DNA from: a virus
Direction: 5' to 3' (one strand)
Virus record (IMG/VR): IMGVR_UViG_3300027805_000110
Span: 1 to 20,093 of that record
Length of the DNA: 20,093 nt
Shown: in pieces, positions 6,673 to 10,616 of the stretch
How the letters are laid out: each line of letters begins with the position of its first letter
How positions within the stretch are numbered: the first letter of the stretch is position 1
Translations under genes and position numbers: made by a program
The notes under the pieces: model-generated
The model's input: only the letters and a program-made list of their open reading frames with translations
Databases searched by the model: none
What the model was told of the DNA's origin: nothing

Positions 6673-6950
6673 GCTGCATTCTCCTCTTTTTCCAGCCGGT
6701 TGGCCACCAAGGTGGCGTAGCCTGCGATGTCGACCCAGTTGTCAGCGTAGTTCGGATCGCCGTTCAAGATGCGCGCAATCTTGTGCTGGATCATCTCCAA
6801 GGCCTCGCGCTGGTCGGCCTGGAGGCCATCCCAGCCGCTGCGCTCGTGCATGGCAGCCTTAAGGTCTTGGCTGATCCTGGCATGTCCCTGGAAGCTGCCA
6901 TACCGACATTCACGGCCGGCCAGCATCTCGTTCACGTTGGTCTGTGTCAT
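6669..6950 (-). CDS. DUF6378-like phage protein
   Basis: A 93-residue protein ending in the block KIARILNGDPNYADNWVDIAGYATLV, which I recognise as characteristic of the DUF6378 family common in phage genomes; its biochemical role is unknown. Mid-protein HERSGWDGLQADQREALEMIQHKI is helical. The ATG at 6950 has only a modest site (AGG, seven bases upstream). It is the first gene of the packaging and head operon, and its stop overlaps the small terminase start as ATGA. The DnaA-box region lies directly upstream, so the late promoter is probably there, though I could not pick a convincing one. Confidence 0.8.
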   Translation of the reverse strand: MTQTNVNEMLAGRECRYGSFQGHARISQDLKAAMHERSGWDGLQADQREALEMIQHKIARILNGDPNYADNWVDIAGYATLVANRLEKEENAA

Positions 6951-6971
6951 GTTAGTGCCTGCTTACTTTTC

Positions 6972-6980
6972 TGTGGATAA
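6972..6980 (-). promoter_or_regulatory. DnaA box 1 (perfect consensus)
   Basis: The plus strand reads TGTGGATAA, so the minus strand reads TTATCCACA, the consensus DnaA-binding nonamer. It lies 22 bases upstream of the first gene of the packaging operon, so DnaA bound here could also affect that operon's transcription. Confidence 0.6.
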
Positions 6981-7062
6981 CTTTTCTCTGCGTTTCAACC
7001 ATCCTGCGGCATGGAAACGCGCCGCGTCGGAAGGGAACTGGGAACACACCTAAAGGTGTGTG

Positions 7063-7129
7063 TTCCGTTCCGTTCCCTTTTTCCGCCGTTTTGCCCAGGG
7101 AACGGAATTCCGTTTTTTTCCGTTCCGTT
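7063..7129. repeat. TTCCGTTCCGTT direct repeats flanking a palindrome
   Basis: TTCCGTTCCGTT occurs at 7063-7074 and again at 7118-7129. Between them is the perfect palindrome AACGGAATTCCGTT (7101-7114), itself containing the same CCGTT unit in both directions and followed by a run of T. Related GGGAAC units occur at 7033-7038 and 7098-7103. The pattern looks like iterons for a replication protein or a repressor, not a coding repeat. Confidence 0.5.
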
Positions 7130-7150
7130 ACCTTGTTCCCTTCCTGGGCC

Positions 7151-7159
7151 TGTGGATAA
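7151..7159 (-). promoter_or_regulatory. DnaA box 2 (perfect consensus, tandem pair)
   Basis: TGTGGATAA on the plus strand, same orientation as box 1 and 12 bases from box 3 measured start to start. Tandem boxes close to one helical turn apart favour cooperative DnaA binding. Confidence 0.6.
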
Positions 7160-7162
7160 GTC

Positions 7163-7171
7163 TGTGGATAA
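7163..7171 (-). promoter_or_regulatory. DnaA box 3 (perfect consensus, tandem pair)
   Basis: Second copy of the tandem pair, TGTGGATAA on the plus strand, seven bases before the primase-helicase stop codon (reading rightwards into its 3' end). Confidence 0.6.
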
Positions 7172-7177
7172 CTCATC

Positions 7178-9199
7178 TCAGCGCTCCGACTTTCGGATCA
7201 GCATGGAGCTGGCGTGAGCATCGTTGACCACAAGCCAGCCGTGCTCGAAGGCCTCGATGATCTCGGCCACCAGCAGGTCTGCGATGGGTTTTCCGGTGGC
7301 GCTTGGCTTGATGTAGACCTTGGCCGAGGCCTCGCTCACGTCCATCTTCTGGACCAGGTAGTCGACCATTGCCGACCTGCTGAGGTAGGGTAAACCATTA
7401 CGCTCCTCAGCGCCGGATGCCCACCAGGCGTTCTCGAAGGTCTTGCGATGGCTGTCGATCTTGCTGTCCTTCCTGGCCGCTGTCGGAGCCTGGGCCTGGA
7501 CGATCACCGCGGAGGTGACTGGCTGGTTGTCCTCGTCGTACCAGCCTGGGATGGTGACCTGCTGCAGCTCGACGTGGACGGTCTGAGCCAGCTCGGCGTC
7601 CTTGGACTTGCGCTGCACGATCTGCATGGGCACGCCATCCTTGCCTGGCACGATGCTGATCTCGATGTCGAGCGCGCCGCGCCAGGCGCTTGAGCCGCGT
7701 GCTCGGTGCTGGGCCTCTTCGGCCACGCCAGTGTGGTGGACCAGGATCACGCTGCAGTGGAACTCGTTCATCAGGCTGTTGCAGGCGTCCAGCATGGTCT
7801 TGGCGTCTTGGGCACTGTTCTCGTCGCCGGCCAGGAATCGGTGCAGGGTATCGACCACGATGATGGCCGGGTTCTCCGGCAGACCGCGCACCTGCTCGAC
7901 CACCTGCAGATAGCCGGCCGGGGTGTTGAGGTCGCATCCGTCCTTGGACAGCCACATGGCCAGGGAGCCGGCCTGGTGGTGGTGCTTCCAGGCTGCCACG
8001 CGCCCACGCAGGCCGTGGTGGCCTTCGCCGGCCAGGTAGACCACATTGCCTGGCCGCACCTTCTGGCCGCACCACTCGGCCATGCCGCTGGCCATGCGCA
8101 GGCACCAGTCCAGGACCACAAAGGTCTTGCCGCCGCCCGATGGGCCGTGGACCATGATCAGCGCCTGGCTCTGCAGCCAGCGCTTGACCAGCCAGGAGAT
8201 CGGTGACGGCTGGGCCGAGAAGTCGTCGGCCGGGATCAGCCAGTTGTCCTTGGCCGGGGAAAGCAGCCCTGCCAGATCGTGGCCAGCCTGCGCATAATCG
8301 TTGGCATCCATGCCCTCGATTGGAGGCATCACCACGCGCGCGCCGTACTTGGCGCTGGCTTGGTCGGCATACTTCTGCCCCACGCCACCCTTGTCGTGGT
8401 CGGCCACGATGACGATGGTCTGCTGGTGGCCGTACATCTCGCGCAGTGTGCCTGTCACCGGCACCAGGTTGCTGGCGCTGTAGGCCACCGCGCAGGGCCG
8501 GCCGGTGGTCTCGTGGACCGTAGCCGCGGTTGCAAACCCTTCGGCCACATACAGCGCGCCTGGATCGTCCATCGTGCCCACCATCCAGAACTTGCCACCA
8601 GCCTCGCCTCCTGGGTGGTACAGCTTGCCGCCATCGTGGCTGATGTACTGCAGGCTGCAGAGCTGGCCATCCTTGTCGAACAGGGGCACCACGAGCCGGC
8701 CATCGCCTGTGATGCGTGCGCCGTGCGTCTTGATGCCCTTGCGCGCCAGGTAGGGGTGATCCGGGTGCGCCGCGGAGGCCGATGACCAGATGGTCTCGAC
8801 CGTGCTGGCCGCCACCTGGTGCTGGCGCTCCAGCTCGGCATCACGCAGCACCTTGGCCTCTGCCACGCGCCTGGCGTGTGCCATCTCCTCGGTCGGTGTC
8901 AGCTTGCGACCGACATCTGCGCGCCAGGTCACCTCGACGCCAGCTCTCCAGCAGCCAAATCGGCCGGCCGGCACGCCATCACCGAAGACCAGGTACCAGC
9001 CAGGCTTGTCGCCGCCCTTGCCGCCTGTGCCCTTGGTGCCGGACCTGAACCTGTGAATCTTGCCGTCCAGGATCACCTGCTCTGGTGGCTCCATGCCGGC
9101 CGCCTTGATGGCGTCGATCAGTTGCTCTTCTGGTGGTGCCACCCTCTTCTCGGGTGGTGGCGACCAGGGGCCGCCGAGGACTTTGGACAGGTCAGCCAT
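7178..9199 (-). CDS. Toprim primase / RecA-like helicase fusion
   Basis: Bifunctional replication protein that should prime and unwind at the phage origin. A DNA-binding or zinc-ribbon-like N-terminus (residues 1-130) is followed by a Toprim domain: LYVAEGFATAATV with Glu 220, and IVIVADHDKGG with Asp 267 and Asp 269. The RecA-like ATPase has Walker A GPSGGGKT at 352-359, Walker B IIVVDT ending at Asp 450, and VILVHHTG as the sensor motif, resembling RepA/AAA_25 helicases. The C-terminal 80 residues look like a winged helix (SRSAMVDYLVQKMDVSEASAKVYI). ATG at 9199 overlaps the HTH gene by eight bases. The candidate origin lies immediately downstream. Confidence 0.92.
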   Translation of the reverse strand: MADLSKVLGGPWSPPPEKRVAPPEEQLIDAIKAAGMEPPEQVILDGKIHRFRSGTKGTGGKGGDKPGWYLVFGDGVPAGRFGCWRAGVEVTWRADVGRKLTPTEEMAHARRVAEAKVLRDAELERQHQVAASTVETIWSSASAAHPDHPYLARKGIKTHGARITGDGRLVVPLFDKDGQLCSLQYISHDGGKLYHPGGEAGGKFWMVGTMDDPGALYVAEGFATAATVHETTGRPCAVAYSASNLVPVTGTLREMYGHQQTIVIVADHDKGGVGQKYADQASAKYGARVVMPPIEGMDANDYAQAGHDLAGLLSPAKDNWLIPADDFSAQPSPISWLVKRWLQSQALIMVHGPSGGGKTFVVLDWCLRMASGMAEWCGQKVRPGNVVYLAGEGHHGLRGRVAAWKHHHQAGSLAMWLSKDGCDLNTPAGYLQVVEQVRGLPENPAIIVVDTLHRFLAGDENSAQDAKTMLDACNSLMNEFHCSVILVHHTGVAEEAQHRARGSSAWRGALDIEISIVPGKDGVPMQIVQRKSKDAELAQTVHVELQQVTIPGWYDEDNQPVTSAVIVQAQAPTAARKDSKIDSHRKTFENAWWASGAEERNGLPYLSRSAMVDYLVQKMDVSEASAKVYIKPSATGKPIADLLVAEIIEAFEHGWLVVNDAHASSMLIRKSER

Positions 9200-9380
9200 T
9201 GATCGTGGCCTCCCTGCGTGTCAGGTAGTCCGACAGCGCCTTGAGCACCTTGTAGGTCGGGTTGGCCTCGGGGTTGTCGCGCACCTCTCGGATGGTGTTG
9301 TAGTGCAGGCCGGTGGCCTCGGCCACTCGGGCAGGCATGCGATCTCGCAGTGCCTCGCGGATTTGTTCAAGGGTCAGCAT
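9192..9380 (-). CDS. Small helix-turn-helix regulator (Cro-like)
   Basis: A 62-residue protein that is essentially one DNA-binding domain: the HTH spans roughly residues 16-35 (ARVAEATGLHYNTIREVRDN), followed by PTYKVLKALSDYL as the packing helix. Size and position, first gene of the leftward operon and facing the divergent control region, are those of Cro-type phage repressors. ATG at 9380 has GAGG six bases upstream. It overlaps the primase-helicase start, so the two are co-transcribed and probably coupled. The likely operator is the dyad at 9415-9450, which would let the protein control its own promoter and the rightward one. Confidence 0.8.
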   Translation of the reverse strand: MLTLEQIREALRDRMPARVAEATGLHYNTIREVRDNPEANPTYKVLKALSDYLTRREATING

Positions 9381-9499: not shown

Positions 9500-9886
9500 A
9501 TGAGCAGCAGCAAGTTTGAAGTCGGTGTCGTTTCTGACCTGTTCGATGCAGGTCGTCAAGACGATGGTCAGCCGTTCATCGCTGAGCGCTTCTTCGTCGA
9601 GCTGGTGAACGTGAACACCGGCCGCCGCTGGAGGCACAACCTGGCCATCAATGGCACCAAGTGTGAATACTGCGAAGAGACGGGTGAGCCGCACTTCCCT
9701 GATCTGCGCGCAGATGCCACCGCACGTCTGGAGCGCCTGGTGGCTCGTGTTCAGGAGCGCTTGGCAGAAGGTGGTCGCCTGGATGCGACTCAGTGGTACG
9801 AAGTCGATCCGGTCTACGGTTCTGACGAGTATGTCAGTCAAGGTATCGAGCTGCAGCGTGTCTTCGCTGAGCGCGCTGCTCATTGA
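9500..9886 (+). CDS. Unidentified early phage protein (128 aa)
   Basis: First gene of the rightward operon. I start it at the ATG at 9500, preceded by GAGGAGA with ideal spacing; the in-frame extension to 9413 would run back through the promoter. The 128-residue product is acidic, with FFVELVNVNTGRRWRHNLAINGTKCEYCEETGEPHFPDL in its middle (CEYC being a possible half metal site) and a charged helix (ARLERLVARVQERL). No family recognised. First position in an immediate-early operon often holds a host-takeover or anti-defence protein, but nothing in the sequence shows that here. A hairpin with a short T run follows. Confidence 0.8.
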   Translation: MSSSKFEVGVVSDLFDAGRQDDGQPFIAERFFVELVNVNTGRRWRHNLAINGTKCEYCEETGEPHFPDLRADATARLERLVARVQERLAEGGRLDATQWYEVDPVYGSDEYVSQGIELQRVFAERAAH

Positions 9887-9895
9887 CAACAACGA

Positions 9896-9919
9896 GGCCG
9901 GTGCAAGCCGGCCATTTTT
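9896..9919 (+). terminator. Weak intrinsic terminator or attenuator hairpin
   Basis: GGCCGG (9896-9901) pairs with CCGGCC (9908-9913) across a six-base loop, followed by ATTTTT. The stem is short but entirely G-C, and the T run is only five, so partial termination or mRNA 3'-end protection is more likely than full stop, given that the operon continues 23 bases later. Confidence 0.5.
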
Positions 9920-9941
9920 GCAACCAAGAAGGAGAGCCAAC

Positions 9942-10616
9942 ATGGCAATCAACGTGAAGACCACCGGCAGCCTCGCTGCCAATGGTGTGAAAGTCCTGGT
10001 CTACGGCCAGGCCGGTGCAGGTAAGACCTCACTGATCAAGACCCTGCCGCAGCCCATCGTGCTGTCTGCTGAAGGAGGCCTGCTGTCCATCCAGGACGCC
10101 GACCTGCCCTTCATCGAGATCAGCGACATGGAGACGCTGCGGGAGGCCTACACCTGGCTGACGCAGTCCGACGAGGCCAAGGGGTTCCAGTCGGTCGCGC
10201 TTGACTCCATCAGCGAGATCGCTGAGGTGGTGCTCAATGCCGAGAAGAAGGCCACCAAAGATCCACGCCAGGCCTACGGTGCAATGCAGGAGCAGATGGC
10301 CGACATCATCCGCGCATTCCGCGACCTGCCTGGCCGGCACGTCTACATGAGCGCAAAGCTGGAGAAGACCCAGGACGAGATGGGTCGCGTGCTGTATGCG
10401 CCCTCGATGCCTGGCAACAAGACCGGCCAGGCGCTGCCATACTTCTTCGACGAGGTGCTGGCGCTGCGTGTCGAGAAGGACAGCGAGAACAACACCCAGC
10501 GCGCCCTGATGTGCGACTCAGACGGCCTCTGGCTGGCCAAGGACCGCAGCGGAAAACTGGACGCCTGGGAAGCGCCGGACCTCGGTGCAGTCATTGCCAA
10601 GATCGGAGGCAAGTGA
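9942..10616 (+). CDS. Sak4-like RecA-family ATPase (AAA_24), recombinase
   Basis: Likely single-strand annealing or strand-exchange recombinase of the Sak4 type. Walker A GQAGAGKT sits at residues 22-29, Walker B FQSVALDS ends at Asp 88, and a later HVYMSAKLEKTQDEMGR block followed by MPGNKTGQALPYFFDEVLAL is typical of phage AAA_24 proteins. At 224 residues it has only the ATPase core. Sak4 proteins work with a phage SSB, and a DUF669 SSB-like gene lies one gene downstream, followed by a nuclease, a recurrent cassette. The ATG at 9942 has AAGGAGAG upstream; in-frame extension to 9651 would overlap the previous gene and is rejected. Confidence 0.87.
   Translation: MAINVKTTGSLAANGVKVLVYGQAGAGKTSLIKTLPQPIVLSAEGGLLSIQDADLPFIEISDMETLREAYTWLTQSDEAKGFQSVALDSISEIAEVVLNAEKKATKDPRQAYGAMQEQMADIIRAFRDLPGRHVYMSAKLEKTQDEMGRVLYAPSMPGNKTGQALPYFFDEVLALRVEKDSENNTQRALMCDSDGLWLAKDRSGKLDAWEAPDLGAVIAKIGGK

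Follow-up and report, generated by a model that had tools for sequence, protein, structure and literature searches.

What does the short stretch of DNA between a replication gene and the packaging genes of this phage do, and which protein is likely to read it? The window, that is, the whole stretch of DNA analyzed here, is a 20,093-bp phage fragment in which the minus-strand genes run in the order Toprim/AAA_25 primase-helicase (9199-7178), a 227-bp gap, DUF6378, Sf6-type small terminase, large terminase, and P22-like portal. Both limits of the gap are exact, with the primase stop codon at 7178-7180 and the DUF6378 ATG at 6948-6950. The initial annotation had proposed a candidate replication origin using host DnaA directly after a Toprim-helicase gene, and the gap indeed starts at the primase-helicase stop codon. 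We conclude that this 227-base element is very probably the replication origin of the phage. Sequence comparison further suggests that it is most likely read by the phage's own initiator, the primase-helicase, given that the repeat type of the element tracks residue 628 of this protein and that the winged helix and the element are replaced together.

The gap had been called non-coding, which is correct in that it holds no conserved gene and incorrect in that it is not free of open reading frames, since a 74-aa minus-strand ORF (7176-6952) spans it. This ORF has no match in a family search and is broken in relatives, where the gap measures 217-228 bases and the longest frame is sometimes shorter than 40 codons; thus, the description as non-coding can stand. 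On the other side of the primase-helicase gene, a small gene for a Cro-like regulator (9192-9380) overlaps the primase start and is followed by a divergent Sak4-like gene (9651-10616), and the order regulator, primase, divergent AAA ATPase is similar in the cultured phages 1N2-2, CGphi29, XX1924, and PB15. Searches against defense-system families gave no match to the initiator, the regulator, or DUF6378. The features are collected in table 1.

Table 1. Features of the putative origin and of the neighboring primase-helicase gene (window coordinates)
Feature	Position	Strand	Remarks
Whole element, putative replication origin	6951..7177	-	Between primase-helicase and DUF6378/terminase genes; read 5' to 3' on the minus strand
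74-aa ORF, judged spurious	6952..7176	-	Fills gap exactly between stop and start codons
Tandem DnaA boxes TTATCCACA-GAC-TTATCCACA	7151..7171 (7163-7171 + 7151-7159)	-	Exact matches
Repeat module 1: GGGAAC-AA-GGTAAC-GGAAC-GGAAAAAAACGGAATTCC-GTTCCC	7098..7140	-	Iteron words facing A-tract, partly inverted; other words in the same layout in relatives
Repeat module 2: GGGAAC-GGAAC-GGAAC / hairpin / GTTCC-C-A-GTTCCC	7025..7086	-	Outer arms covary; end GACGCGG
Apical hairpin GGAACACACACC-TTTA-GGTGTGTTCC	7041..7066	-	Part of module 2
Spacer from module 2 to third box, candidate unwinding region	6981..7021	-	AT-rich in relatives
Third DnaA box, 3' side	6972..6980	-	Exact match
Primase-helicase (Toprim_3 + AAA_25 + C-terminal winged helix), 673 aa; proposed initiator	7178..9199	-	Family matches and fold prediction
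C-terminal domain, residues 578-673, predicted winged helix, proposed origin-binding domain	7181..7468	-	AF2 and structure matches
Codon 628: Val with xGGAAC, Gln with xGTAAC elements	7316..7318	-	Mutual information, tree, extra loci
Codons 634-635 (Ala-Thr), next most type-linked residues	7295..7300	-	Mutual information, close pairs

We found 244 viral-contig stretches that encode relatives of the primase-helicase, kept 80 of them, and obtained more through a second, DUF6378 search, so that the element comparison covers about 100 related contigs, nearly all of metagenomic origin. The layout of the element is fixed. A pair of DnaA boxes is followed by repeat units that face an A-tract and by a GGCAAAA-x-GCG stretch; next come three units, a hairpin, and units in inverted orientation, closed by a GATGCGGC-like end; and a spacer rich in AT (mean 57% AT in relatives vs. 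38% for the window) leads to a third box. The repeats, palindrome, and T tracts of the initial annotation are all present in the window, as TTCCGTTCCGTT repeats (approximately 7063-7079 and 7118-7133), a T-tract, and a GGAATTCC palindrome, and the gap also contains the ACACACCTTTAGGTGTGT hairpin. There are 4-11 units per element, and the words that they spell, nearly uniform inside each phage, define types: xGGAAC (type A, that of the window), xGTAAC (type T), AGGGGGC, AGGGGC, and GGGACA. The window element has eight GGAAC/GTTCC words and one GGTAAC, and an alignment of xGGAAC with xGTAAC elements shows almost all units to differ in a single base of fixed position, G in the former and T in the latter. 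In A- and T-type relatives the densest iteron cluster lies at the place of the element only, and no second, crr-like cluster was found in them. The element thus has several short direct repeats in one compact non-coding region that is unique in the genome, as in iteron-type origins.

An analogous element occupies the same slot in cultured phages, with the words GGTACA (1N2-2), GGGGACA (CGphi29), and GGTTCAC (XX1924 and PB15). Of two scans of genome contigs, the first returned no relative and the second three MAG contigs (L306-L308), whose analogous elements use CGGACC, CGTAAC, and CCGTACC, and a 45%-identical relative (MW202475) has no recognizable element. The element accompanies the primase even where the gene downstream is a different one. 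Extra sequence or genes lie between the primase stop and the element in L080 (~1 kb away) and L126 (~0.3 kb away), both of which have Gln at residue 628 and GGTAAC units; tight adjacency of primase and element is therefore not needed.

The hairpin is conserved in fold rather than in sequence. When the pairs of the named structure are counted over 16 diverse module-2 sequences, 94.0% of cells are paired, compared with 80.1% in shuffled sequences and 33-46% when the structure is slid, and 44 cells are changed on both sides as against 18 in shuffles. The apical stems can be wholly different in sequence between phages with complementarity kept, such that a stem-loop 3' of the replication gene persists in relatives despite sequence change. 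Pair changes of this kind cannot distinguish DNA from RNA, and the hairpin could serve as either; we prefer a DNA hairpin because the repeat words match a predicted DNA-binding domain.

The three exact DnaA nonamers previously noted in one orientation were all recovered on the minus strand (TTATCCACA at 6972-6980, 7151-7159, and 7163-7171), with no other copy in the 20 kb, and the starts of the latter two indeed differ by 12 bases. That such a set is unlikely by chance also holds, since even the looser TTWTNCACA is expected only 0.40 times in the window and 0 of 100 shuffles reach three matches. In relatives above approximately 79% identity the boxes mostly lie 10, 22, and about 200 bases past the primase stop codon, which bears out their expected conservation in close relatives. 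In the complete circular genomes closest to the window type (G001 and G004, 34-35 kb), the three boxes of the element are the only exact ones; the same is true of G009, and G012 has two in its element and one elsewhere. This conservation of the cluster is confined to the two commonest types: the tandem boxes are exact in 31/35 xGGAAC-type and 25/34 xGTAAC-type elements and in 0/29 elements of the three other types (G5, G4, and GA), and the elements in cultured relatives yielded neither exact nor relaxed boxes. The third box is kept more widely (A 34/35, T 27/34, G4 10/10, G5 7/10) and lies on the opposite strand in 7/9 GA elements. Given that the tandem boxes are missing from other types and from cultured relatives, host DnaA would at most aid initiation in some hosts. 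The proposal of an origin that uses host DnaA therefore survives in part: an accessory role at most is plausible from the distribution of the boxes, and for the phage of the window itself we regard participation and nonparticipation of DnaA as about equally probable.

The exact tandem-box 22-mer also occurs in many unrelated viral contigs that lack the repeats of the element, and thus the boxes alone do not define it. Such tandem TTATCCACAG boxes, seen in L154, L161, L171, L185, and many others, often precede a TTGACA-like promoter by some tens of bases; perhaps phages commonly employ DnaA sites close to their early promoters.

Two expectations raised by the initial annotation were not borne out. 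Neither the window nor four complete circular relatives show a GC-skew switch at the element; in the latter, the extrema of detrended skew lie at least 2.4 kb away, with small amplitudes and weak skew throughout. A phage origin need not show such a switch, however. The suggestion that the box near 6972 couples replication to transcription of the packaging genes is unsupported in the window, because no sigma-70-like promoter was found there around 6972. In some relatives the third box lies across a TTGACT/TAGAGT promoter-like site; in L018, L019, L031, and L005 this box, ~188 bases past the primase stop, overlaps a promoter-like TTGACTTATCCACATAAACCCTTTAGAGT, and the downstream gene differs.

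The protein most likely to read the repeats is encoded next to them. The window primase-helicase carries the Toprim motif EGFATA and ends in a domain for which sequence searches against Pfam and PDB gave nothing significant. The AF2 model of this C-terminal block has pLDDT values mostly of 89-97, and its nearest solved structures (VIA) are mostly winged-helix DNA binders at Z 5.4-7.2. Foldseek returned no match at E<=0.001 for this domain, and winged helices appeared only in VIA. A winged-helix fold is thus well suggested by the model rather than proven, since these Z scores are moderate. Pfam RepA_N gave weak matches in 4/51 C-terminal domains (best E 0.007) and none for the window protein.

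Among the columns of the primase-helicase, the one that shares most mutual information with repeat type is residue 628, and 635 and 634 come next. All 34 xGGAAC phages have Val at position 628, and all 35 xGTAAC phages have Gln. In the model this is residue 127, within helix 122-128, which may be part of the recognition helix. On a tree built from residues before 600 only, without the C-terminus, supported branches carry at least 7 switches of type (parsimony counts 11), and residue 628 changed with type in 7/7 independent pairs (p=0.0156). Among loci outside the mutual-information set, 7/8 fit the rule. The exception, L096, has an xGTAAC element beside a Val628 primase tail at the contig edge (1-600), where just 62 aa of the gene are present, and may be a chimeric assembly. 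For eight other phage proteins the best columns reach 0.26-0.53 of label entropy, far short of the tracking at residue 628, and two further control queries had too few rows to count.

Close pairs of phages place the change precisely. The primases of L004 and L005 are approximately 97-98% identical to that of the window, and V628Q, A634S, and T635P are the changes within the last 60 residues that the four nearby T-type relatives all have in common. At the 3' end of the gene, the window and L004 are 84-98% identical per 50 bases, with a short differing patch at codons 628-635 and agreement thereafter, and beyond the gene end nearly every repeat differs. In more distant classes the comparison indicates that the whole C-terminal domain is exchanged along with the element: L076 (xGTAAC) and L135 (AGGGGGC) are 100% identical (to count rounding) over residues 1-577, whereas their winged-helix domains are 44% identical and their elements wholly different. 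By these alignments, repeat words and primase-helicase change together like lock and key.

It is against this covariation that other readings of the element have to be weighed. Host DnaA might be the main initiator, with the phage repeats serving just as spacers or regulatory sites, which would fit the three exact boxes being the sole ones in two complete genomes, their conserved positions at 10, 22, and ~201 from the stop, and their retention when the iterons go from xGGAAC to xGTAAC. We nevertheless consider a DnaA-led origin unlikely: besides their absence from the other types and the cultured relatives, the tandem boxes are missing in L135 even though its residues 1-577 equal those of the box-bearing L076, and the covariation tracks the phage protein, not the boxes. 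The strong covarying hairpin on the strand of the downstream genes would suit a structured RNA or regulatory leader of these genes (an attenuator, antiterminator, or untranslated leader) that acts as a transcript. This is very unlikely, as the element has no Rfam match at gathering score or beyond chance, the window offers no promoter-like site, and DNA binding accounts better for fixed words, direct and inverted, that track one position in a predicted DNA-binding domain.

A packaging site (cos or pac) read by TerS is suggested by the location just upstream of DUF6378-TerS-TerL, and cosB sites also contain short repeats and inverted repeats. We find this reading hardly credible, given that the best TerS and TerL columns reach 0.34 and 0.38 of label entropy while the primase C-terminus tracks type perfectly, and that the element keeps with the primase when the downstream gene changes; a terminase-linked site was rejected for want of covariation between repeat type and the small terminase. 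Finally, the exact fit of the 74-aa ORF between stop and start codons invites the idea that it is a real gene whose codons produce the boxes and repeats as by-products. The probability of this is negligible: close relatives, L006 and L013 among them, have lost the frame, which refutes it, and box spacing and hairpins, unlike the frame, are conserved across indels.

For the phage-read origin that we favor, we propose that the primase-helicase acts as its own initiator, its C-terminal winged helix binding the iterons that lie immediately past its gene. The protein would assemble in several copies on the two repeat arrays; the second array, which forms the hairpin, and/or the AT-rich spacer would be opened, and synthesis would then be started by the Toprim-primase and RecA-like helicase domains that the bound protein itself provides. 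In hosts of the two commonest types, DnaA on the flanking boxes, which lie outside the origin core, would probably aid opening or the recruitment of host factors, as at iteron plasmids.

As an origin the element would be of an ordinary, iteron-type kind; the striking part is the natural swapping of initiator/origin specificity. It is probable, although with considerable room for doubt, that winged-helix tail and adjacent origin form a self-contained replicon cassette in a large phage family with at least five classes (about ten with the cultured relatives), that phages change class through cassette exchange or through a handful of substitutions that fit a single base of each repeat, probably under pressure from origin-recognizing competitors or defenses, and that some classes also recruit host DnaA. 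Superinfection competition, origin-targeting nucleases such as Odn, and satellites are drivers to ask about. This offers a clear account of the way in which a phage whose primase and helicase are fused may find its origin without a separate initiator. The account can be tested, since analogous elements occur in phages in culture (Alteromonas XX1924 and PB15, Idiomarinaceae 1N2-2, and Salicola CGphi29), and the dozens of natural initiator/origin pairs in which a residue tracks a base form a data set for winged-helix DNA recognition.

The closest single-protein analogue of the window primase-helicase is the alpha protein of satellite phage P4, which unites primase, helicase, and a C-terminal winged-helix origin-binding domain, has an EGxATA-type Toprim motif, and is paired with short repeats at ori and crr. 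The P4 helicase is of the SF3 type, and P4 has crr as a second site, whereas the phages here yielded no second cluster of this kind. In the open-licence literature we found no description of the Toprim/AAA_25 group, its range of repeat words, or its residue-to-base match. Origins with iterons and DnaA boxes are known from plasmids such as RK2, P1, pSC101, and F, and these resemble the phage element in their short direct-repeat arrays, encoded winged-helix initiator (predicted here), flanking DnaA boxes, and AT-rich region (PMC4980987). However, most plasmid iterons measure 17-22 bp and the host helicase is loaded by Rep, a separate protein (PMC4980987), whereas the phage element has 5-7 bp words, a covarying hairpin, and an initiator that is itself, as we propose, the primase-helicase.

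For plasmid pRN1, the proposed origin is a stem-loop of ~100 bp immediately past the 3' end of a primase/helicase/winged-helix gene, with the same suggested for phage BIP-1, and there too the fold is kept while the sequence varies (PMC4234260). Those systems combine an archaeo-eukaryotic primase with an SF3 helicase instead of Toprim_3 and AAA_25, and the portion of that account considered here notes neither DnaA boxes nor an allele-specific match like the concerted repeat/residue covariation of our phages (PMC4234260). Recent exchange of a winged-helix domain in a replication protein also has a precedent in a pair of Gordonia phage replication initiators with a swapped winged HTH; unlike here, an origin partner is not mentioned in the part of that report that we draw on (PMC10684548). 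The nearest parallel to joint exchange comes from the RepA_N replicons of PLE satellites, in which initiator domain and origin are exchanged together, with the nuclease Odn as the likely driver (PMC8263062), and in which the swapped iterons are partly palindromic around a poly-A tract (PMC7145576, PMC8263062). The PLE proteins have no primase or helicase and comprise two specificities (PMC7145576, PMC8263062), whereas the phages described here have at least five classes, and in them a single residue tracks a single base.
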